64,000 nt of DNA from Apteryx mantelli (taxonomy: Eukaryota > Chordata > Aves > Apterygiformes > Apterygidae), in contig NC_089980.1 of assembly GCF_036417845.1 (NCBI RefSeq), forward strand, positions 109,827,169 to 109,891,168. Reading direction: 5' to 3'. Positions 51,701 through 63,440 of the stretch are shown here, piece after piece. A program made the position numbers and the translations under genes. Below the pieces are notes generated by a model. That model saw nothing but the letters and a program-made list of their open reading frames with translations. It was not told the DNA's origin and made no database searches. How positions within the stretch are numbered: the first letter of the stretch is position 1; every line of letters starts with the position of its first letter.

Positions 51701-54401
51701 AAGTTGCTCTTAATGGGCCAACACACCTCACTTGCTCTTGGATAATAGCAACAATCCCTTTGTTACAAAGGAGCTGGCAACATTGCTGAAATAGGGAGGG
51801 AAGAGAAAAGTAAAGGTAAGAGTCACTTAAAAAAAAAAGACTGTAATGACTAAAATCAATGGAATTGCCACCAAAATGCTTGGTAGAGTAATATACTTGC
51901 ATACTTCATTCAGTAGTTTTTATTTGACAGCTGTGACAAATTCTATTTAGCAACAGATTATACTATTCCTGTCAGCTGATCAACTTATAAATGGGAGGTC
52001 ATTCCAATACTAGACTTGTGACTGTTGTACATTTGCCTCAAATAAACTTTCATACTAAATCTTAACAAGTCTGACCAGGGATGGTGATTTGACAGACCTT
52101 AAAGCTTCACCCACCTTCCAAGACCAGCAACACAGTGTACAGCAATACAACAACCAGGCTCTTCACGAAATTTAACTTTAAGGAGGTTTAGCCAATCATC
52201 AACAATCTGGTTGGATGGTGGAGCACCGTCATCAAAGGGCCAATCCTAGAATAAAACACTTATATAGGTATGTAAATGTCATAAGAAAAAAATAAAAAAA
52301 AAAGAGAGAACCCTTACTTTTGTGTGCATACCAAAAAAAGTAGGAAGTAGAGTGGAAAACGCTCAAACTTTCTAAAAGTCTACATTTAGCAGTATTTGAA
52401 ATATAATACTTTCATCCACTTTTCATTGAACAGATGCTCTTGCTCAATTTCTGACAGAAAAAAGTAGGTCTGTACAACTTTTGTTTTTAGCAGCTGCTGA
52501 AATATGGAATTAAGAAAGTGAAGTTCTTAAGGTAGTATCTAAGGGAGTATTTTTTACTCTGCTTCTACACTGCTTACCAAAACCTGAATGCCTTCTTTTT
52601 CCACCGGAGCAGTGTCGTAAGTGGCTTCACACACTCTTACCACTGTGGTAACGCCATACTTCTTAAGTTCCTAAGAAGTGAAAAGAACTGTTTTACAGTA
52701 AATCGACTACATGTACCATTCAATTTTCTCAATAGGTTAGCTTATTAACTGATTCCAAAAGTTTCAGTAGAGATACACAAATGTTTTTCACCTTGTGAAG
52801 AATACAAAAGATGAAATACTTGCACACTACTATGTGTGCTAATACCAGATACCTTTAAGCTCTTCTGCAAACACATCTGAAGATTTATTTATTTATTTTT
52901 TTAATTTTGGCAATACGAAGCTATCCCCAGACTTGAGGAGAAATCTCTGTTTTGGACCAGACTTCAACAGATACATTTAAGTACTGATGAAGTAAGTAGT
53001 CTATTTGCAATAGCTTCTTTTCTTTTTTTCTGAGGAACCAGTGTCCTACAAAGCTATATACCTCACTAAAAGCATTCTGAGTGCGGTTTAGGTTTTCCCC
53101 TTCTCTCTCTCTCCTCACAACCACAGATTTGTTACTAACACTTCTTACTGGTTAGAATTAGGAGTACAGGACAATCAAGGATTCCAACTTCTGTGTCTTC
53201 ATAACCAGAGGACAATCTTAGCTTTCCATTTTGCTATTAAGCTTCATTAATGAAAAAGAGGGGCAATCACTCTAATCTCCCTGAAACGACCTATCATTCA
53301 CGCTTTAACTATTAAGGTAATGACTGAACTGTAACCTAAGCATACTTTATCCAGCTGTGAGTATATAATCAAGTGAAGGTTAACTCCCCATGCTTCTTGT
53401 AAATTAGCCTACACTGAATGCATATATAATATAGAGGTATAATAGTAGTATCACCTAAAATCCAGCTACCGAGAGACTGCACTGCAAACTCAAAACCTAG
53501 CAGACCCCTGTCTTTCACAGGAAACTAGTATTGACACGCATGCACACATCTCCAACTGTACTCTTGTTACCTCAAACACACTAGATGCAAGGTTTAGATA
53601 GGAAATTCAGATACAGAAATATATGCCAAGCAACGTGGCTTCAGTCAGGAAATGTGATTTCAGCATATACTGAAATACTTGAAGTAGCTTTAGCAAAGCT
53701 AGCTCTAAATGCAGAGTCAAATTTCAGTCAAGTAGATATGTTGACACCTGTAACAGATTCTCTTAAGCTATAGTAGAACCATGTTTTGCTAATATCAGAA
53801 GGATATAGACAGTGAATGAATGCTGCAATCCTATTTTTATTGCTAAGGTTGTGATCTACAATGCACACAATTATTCCTTTTTAATCACTACTCCAACAGT
53901 GGCAAGGAAATGTTATATTGCTTTAGATGAATCTAAACTTAAGTTCCTACCACTTAGTATTAGATCTTAATACTGTTCTACACATTGTTATAGAACTCTG
54001 CCAAATTCTTCCTTCTTTCAGTCCTAAAATTGTTTACTGGTAACAATGTTATTATTTCTGTATTTCACTTTGAAACATATGTGTTGATGAAGGCCAAAGT
54101 CTATCTAAATAGATTTGTTTATAGCTCTGTAAAGCATGGCATGACTATTTGAAAAAAAGTCAACATATAAGCAGAGTCGCAGTAGCTCTTCATACAGGTT
54201 CCAGAGTTGCATCAACTAGTAAAGAAGGAAATTGTTAATAAAACACATAGTTCAGGAATAGAAAGTATGCCAGTAAGAATCCTGTCCTGACCTTACCTCT
54301 ATAAATTTGTTTAAGGTTGCATTGGTTGGATTGTGTGTGATTAGGAATCTCATGTTCTTGTAGGTGATTTCCACAGGAGCTGGGCGGTTCATTCGGGCCA
54401 T
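48618..54401 (-). CDS. PTP4A1: PTP4A1, protein tyrosine phosphatase type IVA 1 (PRL-1), complete
   Basis: The coding sequence is the join of 54401..54297, 52670..52578, 52245..52115, 49991..49917 and 48735..48618 on the minus strand: 522 nt, 173 residues plus TAA, the standard PRL-1 length. It has the general-acid loop WPFDDG (Asp72), the phosphatase P-loop [10 protein letters not shown] (Cys104, Arg110; CX5R), a polybasic tail (KMRLRFK) and the C-terminal prenylation box CCIQ (Cys170). From family knowledge, PRL-1 is a farnesylated phosphatase at the plasma membrane and endosomes that binds CNNM magnesium transporters. The few differences from mammalian PRL-1 as I remember it are Ile12, Val45 and Cys at 'IECGMKY'. 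PTP4A2 and PTP4A3 differ more, so the assignment is secure. A candidate regulatory uORF lies in its leader. Confidence 0.98.
48736..49916 (-). other. PTP4A1: PTP4A1 intron 5
   Basis: 1.2-kb GT-AG intron. It contains a T-run of about 20 at 48808-48828 and nothing else recognised. Confidence 0.92.
49917..49991 (-). CDS. PTP4A1: PTP4A1 exon 5
   Basis: 75-nt exon between acceptor TTTTTCACCAG (AG at 49993-49992) and donor AGGCA|GTAAGT (GT at 49916-49915). It completes Arg110 of the P-loop and encodes [20 protein letters not shown] and QFIR, ending two bases into Gln. Confidence 0.97.
49992..52114 (-). other. PTP4A1: PTP4A1 intron 4
   Basis: 2.1-kb GT-AG intron that holds a CR1 fragment in antisense orientation to the gene (50307-50841). 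The remaining sequence shows no feature I recognise. Confidence 0.92.
50307..50841 (+). mobile_element. CR1 LINE fragment, C-terminal ORF2 part
   Basis: On the plus strand this matches the reverse-transcriptase C-terminal region of CR1: [21 protein letters not shown], then in another frame [20 protein letters not shown] and [16 protein letters not shown]. Both ends are truncated and it stops before the 3' UTR tail, at about [13 protein letters not shown]. Several frameshifts and a small deletion near 50335 make it a dead copy. It sits antisense inside PTP4A1 intron 4. A CR1 copy that lacks its own 3' end is unusual and implies a later deletion. Confidence 0.94.
52115..52245 (-). CDS. PTP4A1: PTP4A1 exon 4: catalytic loop exon
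   Basis: 131-nt exon between TTTATTCTAG (AG at 52247-52246) and TGGAAG|GTGGGT (GT at 52114-52113). It encodes residues 67-109 plus two bases of Arg110: the WPFDDG loop (Asp72) and the catalytic Cys104 in HCVAGLG. Confidence 0.98.
52246..52577 (-). other. PTP4A1: PTP4A1 intron 3
   Basis: 332-nt GT-AG intron with GTAAGC donor. No other feature. Confidence 0.95.
52578..52670 (-). CDS. PTP4A1: PTP4A1 exon 3
   Basis: 93-nt exon of exactly 31 codons between CACTTCTTAG (AG at 52672-52671) and GTTTTG|GTAAGC. It encodes residues 36-66, [20 protein letters not shown] followed by [11 protein letters not shown]. Confidence 0.98.
52671..54296 (-). other. PTP4A1: PTP4A1 intron 2
   Basis: 1.6-kb GT-AG intron. 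Nothing else recognised. Confidence 0.93.
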
Positions 54402-54846
54402 ATTAATTTAGTTAAACATGCAACAAGATTATGAAAGGATTCAAAAAAATTTTAATATAGAAGTGATGTAGAGAAACTGAAGTCTACTTCACTATACTCC
54501 ACTTGAAATTCTCAGTGCTTGGAAGTATGAAGTTGGGAGCAATGGGAAATGAAATGAACCTCCTAACAAGAAGCAGCAATTCTTCAATCCAGTAATACTG
54601 AGGCAAAAGAAAGGCAGTGCACTGAGGTCTACCCCATCCAGGTCTGAATTCTTTTGTTAAATGCTCTGCCAATTTCAATTCAATACTTCTTATCCTGGTC
54701 AACCACTCTTAGGGGGGCTTCTTGGTGGAGTAGTAATGAATTTCTACAGTTCACTTGTCTGCATAGAGGTCGTGCTGTGCCTGGCAGTAGTCTCCACTGC
54801 CCTTCAGAAACTCCATAAATGTGTGACCAAGAACACCACAGAACTG
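54297..54846 (-). CDS. PTP4A1: PTP4A1 exon 2: 445-nt leader segment plus first 35 codons
   Basis: The coding part is 54401..54297, exactly 35 codons from [16 protein letters not shown] to NKFIE, ending at ATAGAG|GTAAGG. The start ATG has A at -3 and G at +4, a strong context, and upstream frames are not PRL-like. The upstream exon edge is predicted at 54846, after a strong pyrimidine tract and TTTACAG (AG at 54848-54847). The next three bases are again CAG, so 54843 is an alternative edge. The region from 54846 to 54402 would be 5' UTR and holds a uORF. Confidence 0.93.
54751..54846 (-). other. PTP4A1: PTP4A1 leader uORF, exon 2 part
   Basis: From the predicted exon edge the frame reads [10 protein letters not shown], then an internal ATG at 54816 starting [20 protein letters not shown], and ends Lys-TGA at 54753-54751, 350 bases before the main ATG. 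Even alone, the 54816 ATG gives a 21-codon uORF; its context is T at -3 and G at +4, so leaky scanning is expected. The frame is also open upstream into exon 1. PRL-1 and PRL-2 expression is reported to be repressed by a uORF that responds to magnesium. That this is the same element is my inference. Confidence 0.65.
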
Positions 54847-57800
54847 CTGTAAAGAGAAGGAAAAAAAAGCACAGTGAGCATAGGTGAAGTAAGGTTATTT
54901 TGAAGACTCTGAGCATTATAAAAAGAACAAATGAAAGCACAGAGACTAAGTAGTATCATATGGTCTATTTTTTTAATCTAAGAATTACTGTCACATACAA
55001 ATCTTGCTATCTTTCTTGACAAGAATTACTTGCAAGTAAATATGCTTACTTAATACAGAGTTTCCATATATGGGTAGTTTTAATACCAATAATTTAAAAT
55101 GTATTGAAATACCAACTCAAATGTGCTAACACATAGCAAGAAAAGATCAAGCTTTTAGAACTGGTATTTATATAAAGCACAGCTTTTGTAGGATACCCAC
55201 AAAAGTGTTTTCCATTCTGAATTGAAAGACACATCACAACAGCTACTGAAATTACTGTAACTTTAAGTAGTCCCAAACAAGCAAGGATAAGATTCCAAGC
55301 ATATTAAGGCTGAGCATTAGACAATTTCTAGTCTTTAAACAAAACTACCAATCTTTATGTAAATGTTAAATCCACTGCTTTAGCCTTTAAGGCAAGCTAC
55401 TTAGTTTTCATGAAAGCATCACTAATTCACACACACAAGAGCCAGTAAAAAGGCACCTAAATCCACCAGTTTCAAATAGGAGGCCTTGAAAGCAAGCATA
55501 CAAGATGTTTCCAGGAACCCCAGCTTGTAATAAGCTAATACATTGTAAGCAAATGCAAAATCTTTAAGTGACCTAACAAAATAATGTGAGCTTTTAAATA
55601 TGTTTAGAGACTTTCAAGGCACACAGATTTCTAACTTGCACAGATTTCACATACAAAAAGCTGCAGATACATATCCACTTGTCTTTTTTTTTTTTACTTC
55701 TACCTTCAACTGCCTTTTCCCACCATTGCTTTTTAACTGGGCCAAAGTAGTAGTAATATTCTAGTTAAAGATATACAGACAAGTTTATTGAATAGGTTAT
55801 TCTTTCCAAGTGGATCTGTTATTTTGCTATGGTTAAGTTTATACATAAACTTATTGCAAGACATATAGCCAGGCAATAGATAGCTGATGAACTTCTTTGA
55901 ATTGTTTATTCATTTACAGATGCTGCTAAGTAAACAATCCAGAAATGCATGCTTTTTTTATTTTGTGGAATCTTATGGCACAGAAGTTAATTTTGTGCCT
56001 GGCCACAGTATCAGTGCTGCTGACAATATCTAGAAGGCCTTATCTGTCTAGAAGACAGACCAGAAAGGGGGGGGGAGGGGAAAGAAGAGAAAAAGAGAGA
56101 AGGTTGTTTCTGAAAAAGACAGACACAAGCTGAACCAGGTACCCACTGAACATACTTAATCACACAACAGTAACATCCTACAACTTTTTGGCAGAAGAAT
56201 GACTGATATCATCCAGTCAACTCCAAGCAAAGAAAGAAATCTATCTATTCCCATGCCCAAAGAAGATACTGCCCAAGATACTTTGGGAACAGATTACCTG
56301 AAACATGCTGTGCTACAGAACTGCTACTACAAACTTATTCTTTTTTTTTTTTTTTTTTTTTGTGGGTGGGGAGACAGTAACATCATTTTTTAGCTTCATA
56401 CACCCATTTCTAGCAAACGGAAGCTGTACTGACATTGCAGCCTCAATGTTCAGATTCTTTTTTAAAAATCACAAACCAACTCCATGTATGCATCCATCTA
56501 TGTAATCATGGCAAATGTGCATGAGAAAATAAGAAGAGACAACATCTCAGTGCTCTGCACAAAATTTTTCTTTCAAAGAACCATGAAAGAACCAGGCTGT
56601 GCAGAATAGCTTCCCAACCACAAGAAAAAAAAATTCAAAAGATCTGGTTCTAAAGAGTACTGTACAATATCCCTGATAGTAGCCAATGTCTTTTCCAAAG
56701 GGCAGGAAGAACCAAAGTTACATGTGAGTCAGTCATGGCTGCTAATTTCTATCTAGGATTTGCAGTCAGACCAAGACCTCACTGCAGATACTAAACTGTA
56801 TACAGGACTACTGTGAACCTACCTAGTAACAACCATCAATATTAAGCAGAAGTTACAACATACTAACAGCCTAATTATTTAGTTTTCCAGGAGATATCTT
56901 AGCAGATCAGATACCCTGGAAGTACTTTTGCAGATGTTTACATGGAGCTCCTTCCAGACATGCGAGGAAGCCCAGTTTGAAAGTGAGAGATATGAACAAA
57001 GGGTAGCACGAAAGGTGTAGTAACAACAACAAAGTTAGCGTCTGAACATGGAAGAGTGATTAGTAGAAGTCATAGATAGTATCCACCTTTTTCAAAACTG
57101 CAGAAGAGGAATAACAAATACAATACAGGAATTCTTAAAGTGAACTGCATTTTAAAGAACTGCAGCAACATTTTGTGTTTTAGACAGTCTTGCTCCATTC
57201 ATAAGGCCAGAGAAGAGGAAGTTCTAGTAACAGGGAAAATAAAAGTCATTAAGGATTTGTACTGCAGCAGATGGACAGAGCTGTAGCATACAATGTTACA
57301 AAAAAACTTTATAAAAAGCAGACCAAACACCTCCAGACATCATTTTCAGACCACTTGTTGGTACAAGTTTTAAGGACGCACCTTAATTGTAAGCATAGAT
57401 TACACCACCACCCACCACCAACTAGCATGAAGAATAAGTTAGCAGAAAAGTGGCAAAGTTAATAGGACAGCTTTACATGCACTTTGCTGCCACTGTAGCG
57501 ATATTACCACTGTAACATCATTATTTTTGTCAAAAATGGAGGATTAAGTTTGTTTTTTTGCAAGTACCTGGCAACTTCAGCTGTTACTTGTGATTATCTG
57601 GAGATCTCGCTGCCCCTCATTAAATTATGAACATGAAAAAAAGGAGGAAGAACGATACTCTGAGGAGTCACCAAAGGATAGCAGAGTAACAGAAACCAAC
57701 AGATTCTGAGAATCATCATATGACATACCAACCACACCACAGCAAAGAGGGGTAGAAGCAGATAAGATTAAAAGAAAACAAAAAAAAACCCCACAACCAA

Positions 57801-60800
57801 AAATCTAGAATCAGACCTAAGGAGTCTGCCTAAAATAGAGAGCGAGAAGAAGAACTGAACAGTGCTTATTTACAGTTACTTTCAATTTGTTTAAGCAGCA
57901 GAACAACAAAAAGGTACAGGACAGCTTTAAGCAGATAGAGTCCTCGTGCAGCTTTTCTCATGGACCAATAGACCTCATGTTTATTTCCTAAAACTGAGAA
58001 GAATCATAGCTGGCCCTTTTCTCTAGGAGAGGATAGAGAAGTGGAGGCTGTCAGAGACAGAAATAAAAAAGGATGAAATTGAGCTAAAGAAGATTATGAG
58101 ATTGAACTGGGTCACTAGGGTAAAGAAAAGGCTTTTGAGTCTACAAGATGGATAACTTTAAGGGGAAATGACTGCAGAATAATTGGGAACAGTTAACATG
58201 AACCCATACTGGGTCAGATAGGAAGTAAAAAAAAGTCAGGATTCATGCAGTCTTGTATGTAGACTGCCATTTCTGCCCTTAATATGCACCTATTGGTACT
58301 CAATACAACACCAGATAAATGCATCATGGGGTAAAGAGAAGAGCAGACAAAAGAGCATTAGTTAAGTACTTAACTCCTACTTTTAAAGAATGCTATTAAA
58401 TCCCATCTAGAAACTGGGTTCACAATTCAAATTATTATACAAAATTGATGCAAGTACATTACATAATGTCAGGTTTGAGTTCTATGTGCAATTAACCCCT
58501 ATAAATGAATCCATTTCTTTAATACTAGCTTAGCAGTTAGCAATTAGACACATCAGCACCTTACTAATTCACACAACTAAAGACCTAACCAAGCATGCAT
58601 TTCAGTCTCTCTGTTTGCCTTGGCAACAGCTGCTGCCACATTATAAAGGAGCAAAGCTCACATTTTCCTTTGATGAGAATGCCTCTCTTCTCATCATTGT
58701 TAGCCAGAAAGAATATGTAAACCAATTCCTTAGCACAGTAACAAGTTGTACTGTCCTAGAACTGTTTTGCCAACCTAGTTTAGTTCTGGAAAAATTAAAT
58801 TTGAATCCAAGAGTTTTCACAACTCATCTGTACTAACTGTGATGCTGACAGACTTTTAGGTCTCCTGAAAGGAGACAATTATTTAAAAAGTTTTACCCCC
58901 CCCACCCCCCAAGATAAAAAGACAATCCAAAGAGTTTTGTCTCAGGAGATGTTGTTTCAGGATTCTTTTTCCAGGAATCAAATGGGAATTAAAGACAATA
59001 GGTATATCAGCATGCTATTCGGATTATAATATTACACCATGGTACAAGGTTTCATCATTCTTCAGCAGAAAGACCTGGAAGAGAGGACATCAGCTACAGA
59101 AATACCGTTGTAGTAATTAAGACCAGCTTTGTGCTTAGGGAGAACTCAGATGACTTAAGTGACTTTCAAGAGGCTTAGAAGTGCAATTTTGAGATTACTG
59201 AATTGTTTCAGATAGTTAACTATTTGGTAGGTGAGCTATCAAAAAAGTCAAGACTCAATAGTACATGAAAGCATAAGTCTGATTAAGCGGATTATCACAC
59301 GCAACCCAAATGCATATTACTGTATATATATGTTTCTCTAACGGATTATCACCAACTAATGGTCTGTATCATCAATTTGGGCAGTCCGGCAAGCTCTTTT
59401 CCATTTCAAAGAGAGTCTTCTTTAAAGAAAGCTAACACTGAGGGGTTTTGGAGACACAAGCAGCAGCTTCCATTAGTAAAAGAAAGTTATCCAACATTTA
59501 AGCTGTCAGATCCATCAAATTCAACTTGGAAAACAAAATTAAAGTTAATATGCCAAGAAAATCTATTAAGAAAAAGCATCCAATATTGGACAAATTCATG
59601 TTAATTATGATCACTCCATTTACCATCATGTATGCTAGGAGAAGTTAGAGAATACTTTATTTGAGCAAGAGGAAGACATCTTAAAGCTTTTTTTTTTTTG
59701 CCCCTCCCCCCCCTTTTTTTAATTCATGCCCTTCTCTGGGACAGGAATCTAAAGTATTTGTCTTCACTGACAAGTAGATTCAAATCTACGTTATTTCTGT
59801 GCTTGAAGCAGTCACTTATGTCTGGCAAAAGACCACTTACAGAAGAGATGCATTAGATTGTTGCCAATATGCATAAAGCAAACAAGTATTTTTTCCATGC
59901 TGCTGCTGTTTTATTCCTAACTTGGTAGCACCTTAAAAAGCGTGCAAATGAAAGTGTTCGTTTACACAGTTACATGACATTTCACTCCACCTTAGGAAGA
60001 AGGCCTATACGTGGTCCAGTTGCTCAATCCATCTGATCATAGACCCAAAATATCTACACCCAGAATCAACTATTTGGGCTCACCCTTAGTTACTGAAACC
60101 ACAGAAATCAAAAAGCAGAAAACTATACTCATTTGTGAGCATTGCCAAATTGTAATGAAGTTAAGAGTTCTTTGTTCTAACTTGATTTCTCTCACTATCC
60201 AAGCGACTTTCACTATGCAAAACCTAACAGTAACTGCTAAGACAGGCAAGGGGGGTGGGTAAGGAGTACAAACTGTTGAGCCCTACTGCATAGGGGCACA
60301 CCTTCATTAGATACTGTTGTAAAGATTAATCTCCTACATATAAGGCACAAGAATGCCTGTATGATGATAGTGATGGTGATAAAACTATGTTTTAGGCTAG
60401 AGAAAGTGACCCATGGTGTAAACAAAACAAAAAAAAGGAAAAAAAATCACAAACAAGAGATTCCAAAGTCTACAATAAATTTGTTATAAAGTAGTCTGTG
60501 AAGGAAGGATGTTTTTGTAGCTAACGGATGCAGTTCAGGGGAAGAAGGGGAACACATTATCACAAAACTTCCTGTATAATAACTGAATGCAACTTCCACA
60601 GATGATGAAACTAAGACTCTGTGACCATCTTTCTAGTTCTCTTCCTCGCACCATGAAAAAACATGTGCACACAAACAAAATGCTTAACAGACACTGGAGA
60701 AATAAGACATGACAGAAACTATTTCCCCCACCTCATCTGAGGCATCCGTCTTTCAAAGCTTCTGAAAGCAAGGAGTCTCAAAATGACTTAACGTTGCTGT

Positions 60801-63205
60801 TAAATTCAATAGCAAGCTATATAATTCCTGTACATTTTAAGCAAGACATAAAAAAAATGATATATATATGCAGACAGTCATTGTCGTATTTTATTAACTC
60901 TAAAGATACTGACTGATAAACAATACATTGTGTTTGTGAAGAAAGATGTAAGGGGTTCTGGATCTACTTTTAACACTTATTTGAAACTGAGTTTTAATAT
61001 ATGTATTTTAAATATAAGGTGACAACCTGCTACTAGTTTAGAATTCAGCAATATCCTGAGCTCCCAGATCAAGGCACTTTTCAGGGTAAGTGGTCACTTT
61101 CAGTCAGCCTACACACTAGGAAAGATCCAGAATTCTTACGTGGCACATATTCAGTCAAAACATGAAGGTTTCTACAATATAAAGGGGAGAATTTAACCTT
61201 AGTAGATGAGATCTATTTATTTACTGCCTTACTGACAAATTTAGCTTCACTAAGACAACAACAACCTTCTCTCTAGGCCTTTGCTACATCAGCTACTCAT
61301 TTTTCTTTTTCACTCTCATGTTTCCTCCCATCCGCATGTGATTTCTGTATTGTTTCCTCGATATTTTTTCTCCAAAACAATTCTGTTCTTGTTCCTTTAA
61401 GTCTTCATTTCAAAACCCTTTTCTGTTCCATCAATGGAACAACAAGGGCTGACATTTAAGTGTCATCCCCAGGTTTTTAGGTTTGACAGTCTAATGAGAT
61501 TAAGAGGAGACAAGGCTTATACTTCTGAGTCACCGTTTTGGACTCTCTGCAGATGCAGGTAGACATATTGGAAAGTTGTCTCCAGCAGCAGTAAGAAACA
61601 CGAGAATCACACAACGCCTATGCCACAAAGATGGCATACTTGTTAGCTTGTGATATTTGCAATATATTTAGCTGGCTACCTGACAGCTACTGAGGCCTGT
61701 GTGCAAATGTCACCAATCATGCTTTCCACTACAACCATATGATAGTTACTTGATTTTGGTAACTTTTTGTCTTTCCTCTATCACCAACAAACATCATATT
61801 TCTTGTGTGCTTAAACTACACACTCTGGGCTGGTATTAGAGAAGTTAGCCAATAGAGACAGAGGGCAAAAATAAAACAAAACACTTTTCCCTTTTCAGAA
61901 GGGAAAGGTGCTCTTGAAAGGACAGAAGACAAGGCCTTAAAAGCAGTTTCAGCCGGACTAAGATACCTGGTTGTATTCATCAGCTTCTAAGGGTCAAAGG
62001 CAGACTCTTACAAAAAATATCCACTTCAACGTCTATTTAAAGGACTCCCCTGCAGACTTTCCTCCCCCCCCCCAAAAAAAGAACTGTCTATAAATCCCGT
62101 CTGAAGACCGGCTGCGTGCGCCAGCACGGCCATACCACCCCCTTCCTGCATAATGTTCACCCCGAAAGGCTTCACGTACTAAGTTACGGTTGCTTTTGGC
62201 CCGCTGTGAGGATACACCACAGACAAAGAAAGCCGTTTCGCCGCTTTGGCCCTGGCTTTGGCGGTGGTTTCCCACGTGCCCCGGGAGAGCAAGGGGGCAA
62301 AGGGAGGGAGGCCGAGGCGAGCCCACCGCGCCGCGCCGGCCATGCCCTCCCCCCGCCGCGCCGGCCATGCCGCCAGCCGTGCCCTCCCCCCGCCGCGCCG
62401 GCCATGCCGCCGGCCGTGCCCTCCCCCCGCCGCGCCGATTCAGTGTGCGGCCGCGGGCTTCCGCGGCGCCACCTGCCCGGCGGGCAAGCCGCGGCTTGCC
62501 CCGCGCCACGTACCGCCCCGCCCGGGGCGCGGGGCCAGCGGCCGGGCCAGGCCGGCGCCGCGGCTGCGGCGATCACGGGTTTGAGCCACGCTTCGATCGG
62601 GCTCCCGACACGGAGCCATCTTGTCGCTCGGAGCCGCCGCCCGGGCCCGGCCTCCCCCCGGCAGGGGGCTCCCGGCGCCCGCCGCCTCCGCCCCGCACCC
62701 CGCGGCCGCTGCCCCGGCCCAGGCGGCGGTTGCGCCAGCGTGGCCGAGGGCCGCCGCCACACAGGCACCGAGGGGGCGGAGGGGGCCCGGCCCGGCGGGC
62801 GGGGCCGGCGGCGGCCACGCTCACAAAGCGGCTTTGTGCGCGGCCCGGGCCGCCGGGCCCGGGCGGGAGCAGCGGAGAGGTCACCCCGGCCCCGGCCGGC
62901 TGGTGCGCGGAGGGGAGCGGAGCGGGCACGCGGGGGCAGGCGAGGGGAGCCGGGGCGGCAGAGCCGCGCCGCAGCCAGGCTGGCCCCGCTCCCGGGCGGC
63001 CGCCGGGGAGGAGCCGCAGCCCGGCGCAGCGAGAAGCCGCCCGGAGCCGGCGTGGCCCGGGCGACAGAACAAAGAGACAACATGGAGGAGGCGGCGGGGG
63101 GGGGGCGCGGGAGCGCGAGGGTCGCCAGCGCGGCGCACGCCGGGCGGGGGCCGGGGAGGGGCGGCGGGGCCCGCGACGCGGCCGGGCGGCGGCGGCGGCA
63201 CTCAC
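54847..63205 (-). other. PTP4A1: PTP4A1 intron 1
   Basis: 8.4-kb intron between the promoter-proximal exon and the start-codon exon. Contents: a T-run (56341-56361), a G-run (56068-56080), C-runs near 58898-58911 and 59701-59713, and the intronic end of the GC island from about 62.23 kb with a 37-bp minisatellite. Open frames (for example 59359-59604, 60011-60262) are without similarity. No RNA gene was recognised. Confidence 0.8.
62338..62436. repeat. GC-rich 37-bp minisatellite in the CpG island
   Basis: Two nearly identical 37-bp units (62363-62399 and 62400-62436, one difference) follow a 25-bp partial unit (62338-62362). Each starts GGCCATGCC and ends CCCCCCGCCGCGCC. The copy number is probably polymorphic. 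Confidence 0.85.
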
Positions 63206-63440
63206 AGGAATATGGTTACTCATTGAAGACTGTAGCCTGATCATACAGCCGGGGTGCGGGCGCCACCGCCGGGGGCAGGAGGAGCAGAACCAGGAGGACG
63301 TGGAGGCGCTGGAGGCCGCGGAGCTGCCGGAGGGGGTACAGCGGCGGCGCGAGGATGGACCATACAGCTGCAGCGGCAGCGGACGGGCGGCTCTGCGGGA
63401 TGGCGCGGCGCTAACGCGGACGAGGCTGCACACGGAGGGA
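63206..63440 (-). other. PTP4A1: PTP4A1 noncoding exon 1 with uORF start (donor precise, 5' end approximate)
   Basis: An AT-richer stretch of about 40 bases (63206-63250) inside the CpG island ends at a good donor, CATATTCCT|GTGAGT (GT at 63205-63204, minus strand). An ATG at 63244 opens a frame, MIRLQSSMSNHIP, of exactly 13 codons to the exon edge; a second in-frame ATG is at 63223. Both starts have a pyrimidine at -3, so they are weak. The frame continues without a stop into exon 2 at 54846. The 5' end is a guess from the CCAAT box at 63518. Other donors, such as GCAG|GTGGCG (62473/62472), could define alternative first exons. Confidence 0.5.

Follow-up and report, generated by a model that had tools for sequence, protein, structure and literature searches.

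An upstream reading frame shared by PTP4A1 and PTP4A2 in Apteryx mantelli and its predicted division by the first PTP4A1 intron

The leader of PTP4A1 in Apteryx mantelli carries an upstream open reading frame (uORF) whose exon-2 part, judged from sequence, is clearly constrained across PTP4A1 and its paralogue PTP4A2. This frame is very probably orthologous to the conserved-peptide uORF already known from these two genes, a translational brake on the phosphatase. The regulatory element as such is already known; its division by an intron was not found in print. In our sequence the division by the first PTP4A1 intron is predicted from splice motifs and from an in-phase ATG upstream of PTP4A2. 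The PTP4A phosphatases, which are elevated in cancers, bind the CNNM regulators of magnesium transport.

The upstream frame in the PTP4A1 leader

Positions refer to the window, that is, the whole stretch of 64,000 nucleotides that was analysed. The uORF begins on the minus strand at ATG 63244, from which 13 codons run to a GTGAGT donor; a further 31 codons, from 54846 onwards, lead to TGA 54751, which lies 349 nt 5′ of the PTP4A1 start. Joining 63206 to 54846 gave a 44-codon spliced translation closing with TGA, which agrees with the coordinates and the reading of the original prediction. The host gene is PTP4A1, as the best PDB matches of the first 34 coding residues were PTP4A1 chains; the assignments of PTP4A2 and PTP4A3 also follow best PDB matches. 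Further along the minus strand, at 52658, 52137 and 48716, there are what we take to be family motifs. The uORF lies 5′ of the main frame and separate from it, its exon-2 part being certain by position and its exon-1 part predicted. Which of the exon-1 ATGs an mRNA contains depends on the transcription start site. The features of the leader, all on the minus strand, are as follows.

63241..63363, minus: uORF of 40 codons, its TGA overlapping ATG 63244 as ATGA
63206..63244, minus: first 13 codons of the uORF (MIRLQSSMSNHIP) in the predicted exon 1, with ATG 63244 and ATG 63223 in frame; the exon is a prediction from the splice motif alone
63200..63205, minus: predicted 5′ splice site GTGAGT, the sole GTGAGT/GTAAGT among 3 GT[AG]AG sites in 63480-62000
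54847..54880, minus: predicted 3′ splice site and pyrimidine tract, ending in CTTTACAG; CTCTTTAG at the equivalent place of PTP4A2
54751..54846, minus: exon-2 part of the uORF, 31 codons and TGA, identical to PTP4A2 in 67/96 bases and 15/31 residues
54751..54816, minus: shortest in-frame version of the uORF, 21 codons from ATG 54816, an ATG position common to PTP4A2
54744..54764, minus: short uORF MQTSEL in exon 2, in another frame, overlapping the end of the main uORF
54629..54637, minus: short uORF MG in exon 2
54408..54419, minus: short uORF MFN in exon 2; no ATG at the aligned place in the human leader primer, in the accessible part of PMC12221301
54300..54401, minus: first part of the PTP4A1 coding sequence, from ATG 54401

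The 40-codon frame and the short frames MQTSEL, MG and MFN were missed by the original prediction. The ATGA overlap of the 40-codon frame with the uORF could allow a termination-coupled restart.

The main ATG 54401 has A at -3 and G at +4, the strong context that had been claimed for it. The in-frame upstream ATGs had all been described as weak; this holds for 63244 and 63223 (T at -3, A at +4) but not for 54816 (T at -3, G at +4), whose context is intermediate because of the G at +4.

At the predicted donor (63205) the exon side, TTCCT, is off consensus. The acceptor is a tandem CAGCAG (54850-54844, minus strand), so that 54846 or 54843 may serve, both in frame and one glutamine codon apart; PTP4A2 has a single acceptor at the equivalent place and no such tandem. 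A 174-base spliced query matched the genome as two separate exons only, with no retrocopy among the best candidates scored.

Comparison with PTP4A2 and PTP4A3

How much of this frame is shared by the other members of the family? The exon-2 peptide matched the genome twice at E<=10, at PTP4A1 itself and at C27:6325323-6325412 (50% identical, E 0.09), and the reciprocal search from the latter, the PTP4A2 stretch, gave the same pair (E 0.06). By E-value alone these protein matches are weak. The PTP4A2 frame starts 561 bases 5′ of the PTP4A2 ATG, directly at the acceptor CTCTTTAG, and matches PTP4A1 in its length of 31 codons, in the codon at which an internal ATG stands and in its closing TGA. 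From acceptor to stop the two genes are identical in 67 of 96 bases and in 15 of 31 residues, and the local alignment score is 65, whereas the best of 1000 shuffles reached 30. Identity amounts to 22 of 33 bases from the acceptor through ATG 54816, and to 10 of the 30 bases that follow the stop codon. No likeness was found between the two genes from the stop to the main ATG (304 of 1000 shuffles as good) or in the intron from -300 to -30 (933 of 1000). The context of ATG 54816, ACATTT-ATG-G, is common to PTP4A2, and 21 codons follow from it in both genes.

Both frames end in D-Y/F-C-Q-A-Q-H-x-x-x-A-D-K-stop. In the last 13 codons nine residues are identical (two of them through a synonymous change, in both cases in an alanine codon), one is Y/F, three differ, and both frames close with an identical stop. 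Across all of the exon-2 frame, bases are conserved at 22, 20 and 22 of 31 codons in positions 1, 2 and 3, and the codons with a single change include 2 synonymous and 7 nonsynonymous ones, so the pair has no coding signature at this scale; the case for a peptide consists of the C-terminal core together with the published human reporters. In frame the BLOSUM score is 77, while the other two frames score 48 and 56. Simulating 29 random changes 20000 times introduced a stop in 12997 runs and left, in 531, an open frame whose residue similarity equalled or exceeded that observed. Peptide conservation between the two leaders is thus present in the C-terminal core and weak elsewhere.

For PTP4A3, neither peptide search of the genome found a copy of the uORF, and the end-of-frame motifs were absent from the three forward frames of 19.8 kb upstream. 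A degenerate core pattern had 0 matches in the viral_contigs and genome_contigs collections, as expected, since these hold no vertebrates.

Is the intron shared as well? In the CpG island about 10 kb upstream of PTP4A2, ATG 6315361 lies 9 bases 5′ of a candidate GTGAGG donor (6315370), through which its phase continues into the PTP4A2 exon-2 frame. The interval 6315100-6316200 holds four GT[AG]AG sites, one before this ATG and three after it (6315370, 6315409 and 6315529). The ATG is the single one in 6315180-6315369 and is in phase, with no intervening stop, with all three later sites, and thus the result is independent of the choice among them. For a single ATG and a single donor, agreement in phase is expected by chance in a third of cases. 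With start and donor both candidates, this backs a shared intron phase as suggestive evidence and not as proof.

The peptides of exon 1 are another matter: in the PTP4A2 candidate 3 codons precede the first putative donor, against 13 in PTP4A1, and the peptides are not similar. The exon-1 part of PTP4A1 had been taken for a low-GC patch under selection. The low GC was found again (38.5% against 81% for the island 64000-62300, the second-lowest level among 39-mers there), while selection on the patch finds no support in the short and dissimilar PTP4A2 candidate.

Also in the PTP4A2 leader are a further uORF of 39 codons (C27:6325492), located 3′ of the conserved one and 5′ of the main start, and three uORFs of lesser length. 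A GC-rich 71-base unit is tandemly repeated about 8 times with 97% matches (C27, near 6310362-6310937) in the interval that separates the two CpG islands 5′ of PTP4A2.

The published uORF and the rival explanations

Much of the function of a PTP4A1 uORF is described in the accessible parts of earlier papers. In a scan of animal genomes the PTP4A1 conserved-peptide uORF (CPuORF) was a positive control for sequence-dependent repression, and frameshifting the human CPuORF gave higher reporter expression (PMC7530721, which cites Hardy et al. 2019 PNAS). The peptide (uPEP) of Ptp4a1 is reported as conserved from human to fish, chicken included (PMC3914846). According to a review, again in its accessible text, magnesium depletion leads to more PRL-1/2 translation, likely via a uORF, and the response is lost when the uORF coding sequence is rearranged (PMC11855589). 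Excerpts on stress state that PTP4A1 mRNA resists eIF2 stress, that its leader cuts reporter expression about sevenfold, and that all eIF2-stress-resistant mRNAs except HOXB2 have uORFs translated under normal conditions (PMC4383229); another paper names PTP4A1 as one of the mRNAs with uORFs that increase during the stress response (PMC8651795). The original prediction was right in proposing a regulatory PTP4A1 uORF, which had already been published (PMC7530721, PMC3914846, PMC11855589), and its mention of a reported magnesium-sensitive uORF in PRL-1/PRL-2 agrees with the review (PMC11855589).

The published human uORF is presumably the present frame. The two agree in gene, in leader position and in a conservation range that includes chicken (PMC7530721, PMC3914846, Hardy et al. 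2019 PNAS, as far as their accessible text goes), and a human primer sequence falls inside our frame. However, the accessible CPuORF accounts describe neither the intron division nor the nested starts predicted here. The magnesium-sensitive uORFs of TRPM7 (PMC4227784, PMC11855589, accessible parts) are alike in being a uORF control on a magnesium-handling gene, induced by magnesium depletion; they differ in the gene and in the mechanism given by the review, which is competition between uORF and main frame and not a nascent peptide (PMC11855589). No description of an intron-divided PTP4A1 uORF was found in the literature searched, a coverage that lacks most subscription papers. A phrase search for intron-divided uORFs in general had no match, which says little as wording varies; the printed uORF peptide strings had none in the literature searched either, and PTP4A1 was absent among the matches listed for microproteins. 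The papers listed for printed primers of the leader dealt, to judge by their titles, with other subjects. The accessible parts of PMC12386583 and PMC1431701 contain relevant words and nothing on the PTP4A1 uORF, and the text of PMC1402274 lacks the gene name PTP4A1.

In the explanation that we prefer, initiation at an upstream AUG would yield a short peptide whose C-terminal stretch, DYCQAQH...ADK, would slow or stall ribosomes at the end of the frame, presumably through the nascent peptide, so that less phosphatase is translated. Low magnesium would relieve this brake, and the PTP4A1 mRNA would resist eIF2 stress. Exon 1 may supply the first AUGs through the 63205/54847 intron. The frame and the exon-2 constraint across PTP4A1 and PTP4A2 were obtained here; repression dependent on the uORF sequence, the magnesium response and the stress resistance come from the accessible parts of the human-cell papers.

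How easily could such a frame arise by chance? In 5000 Markov resamples of the 265 bases 5′ of the donor and the 444 bases 3′ of the acceptor, an ATG frame of any length crossed the junction in 3518, one of at least 44 codons crossed it in 2245, and at least 31 exon-2 codons were found in 699. Exon 1 is poor in stops because it is GC-rich. With 2245 such frames in 5000 resamples, openness alone is therefore no evidence, and the paralogue comparison is. An open frame without any role, which these counts would allow, is contradicted for its exon-2 part by the PTP4A2 conservation and by the reporter data in the accessible part of PMC7530721, and we consider it highly improbable. The exon-2 stretch might otherwise be kept as an RNA or splicing element, such as an exonic enhancer for the acceptor, and not for its peptide. 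Third codon positions conserved as much as the first two would fit this reading; yet the conservation does not extend past the stop codon, with identity at 10 of the 30 bases beyond it, both changes in the core alanine codons are synonymous, and human frameshift reporters respond (PMC7530721, accessible part). The BLOSUM score of 77 against 48 and 56 adds a modest argument to these, since 531 of 20000 simulations remained open with at least as good a score. We regard such an element as an unlikely explanation.

More serious is a narrower version of the preferred explanation, not exclusive of it, by which the working uORF is the single-exon 21-codon frame from ATG 54816, and the ATGs of exon 1 either extend it in frame by accident or lie outside the main transcript. 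The start with its ACATTT-ATG-G context and the 21 codons are common to PTP4A2, the exon-1 parts are unlike (13 codons here, 3 in the candidate of PTP4A2), and junction-crossing frames are frequent by chance (3518 of 5000). Against these points, conservation begins already at the acceptor (22 of 33 bases through the ATG), both genes are open back to the splice site over an equal number of codons, and the single ATG of the PTP4A2 interval shares its phase with all three GT[AG]AG sites that follow it. This version may well apply, although on balance we do not favour it.

Leader isoforms and control of the phosphatase

About one-third of Ptp4a1 transcripts are reported to start inside the leader (accessible part of PMC9456764; mouse, judged by the gene spelling). 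For the human leader ENST00000626021 a forward primer was used (PMC12221301, accessible part), which aligns to 54794-54776, within the uORF and downstream of ATG 54816. Of its 19 bases 18 match, and the mismatch (GAC to GAT) leaves the residue encoded in this frame unchanged. If this primer marks the 5′ end of the mRNA, as we infer, the mRNA would have no in-frame start and would escape the brake.

It is possible, though rather doubtful, that the uORF intron, with its phase kept between PTP4A1 and PTP4A2, itself belongs to the control, the choice of promoter setting the magnesium answer of the phosphatase. In that case mRNAs from the distal promoter, with the exon-1 AUGs, would carry the full brake, transcripts starting within exon 2 would carry only ATG 54816, and transcripts like the human leader cloned with the primer at 54794 (PMC12221301, accessible part) would have no in-frame start and escape the magnesium brake. 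Leader isoforms of this last kind are the point that we judge most worth testing. As two of this genome's three paralogues have it, the brake on PTP4A translation would be old, and if the intron and the internal starts choose which mRNAs bear it, the results of reporter and CRISPR experiments would vary with the leader isoform used.
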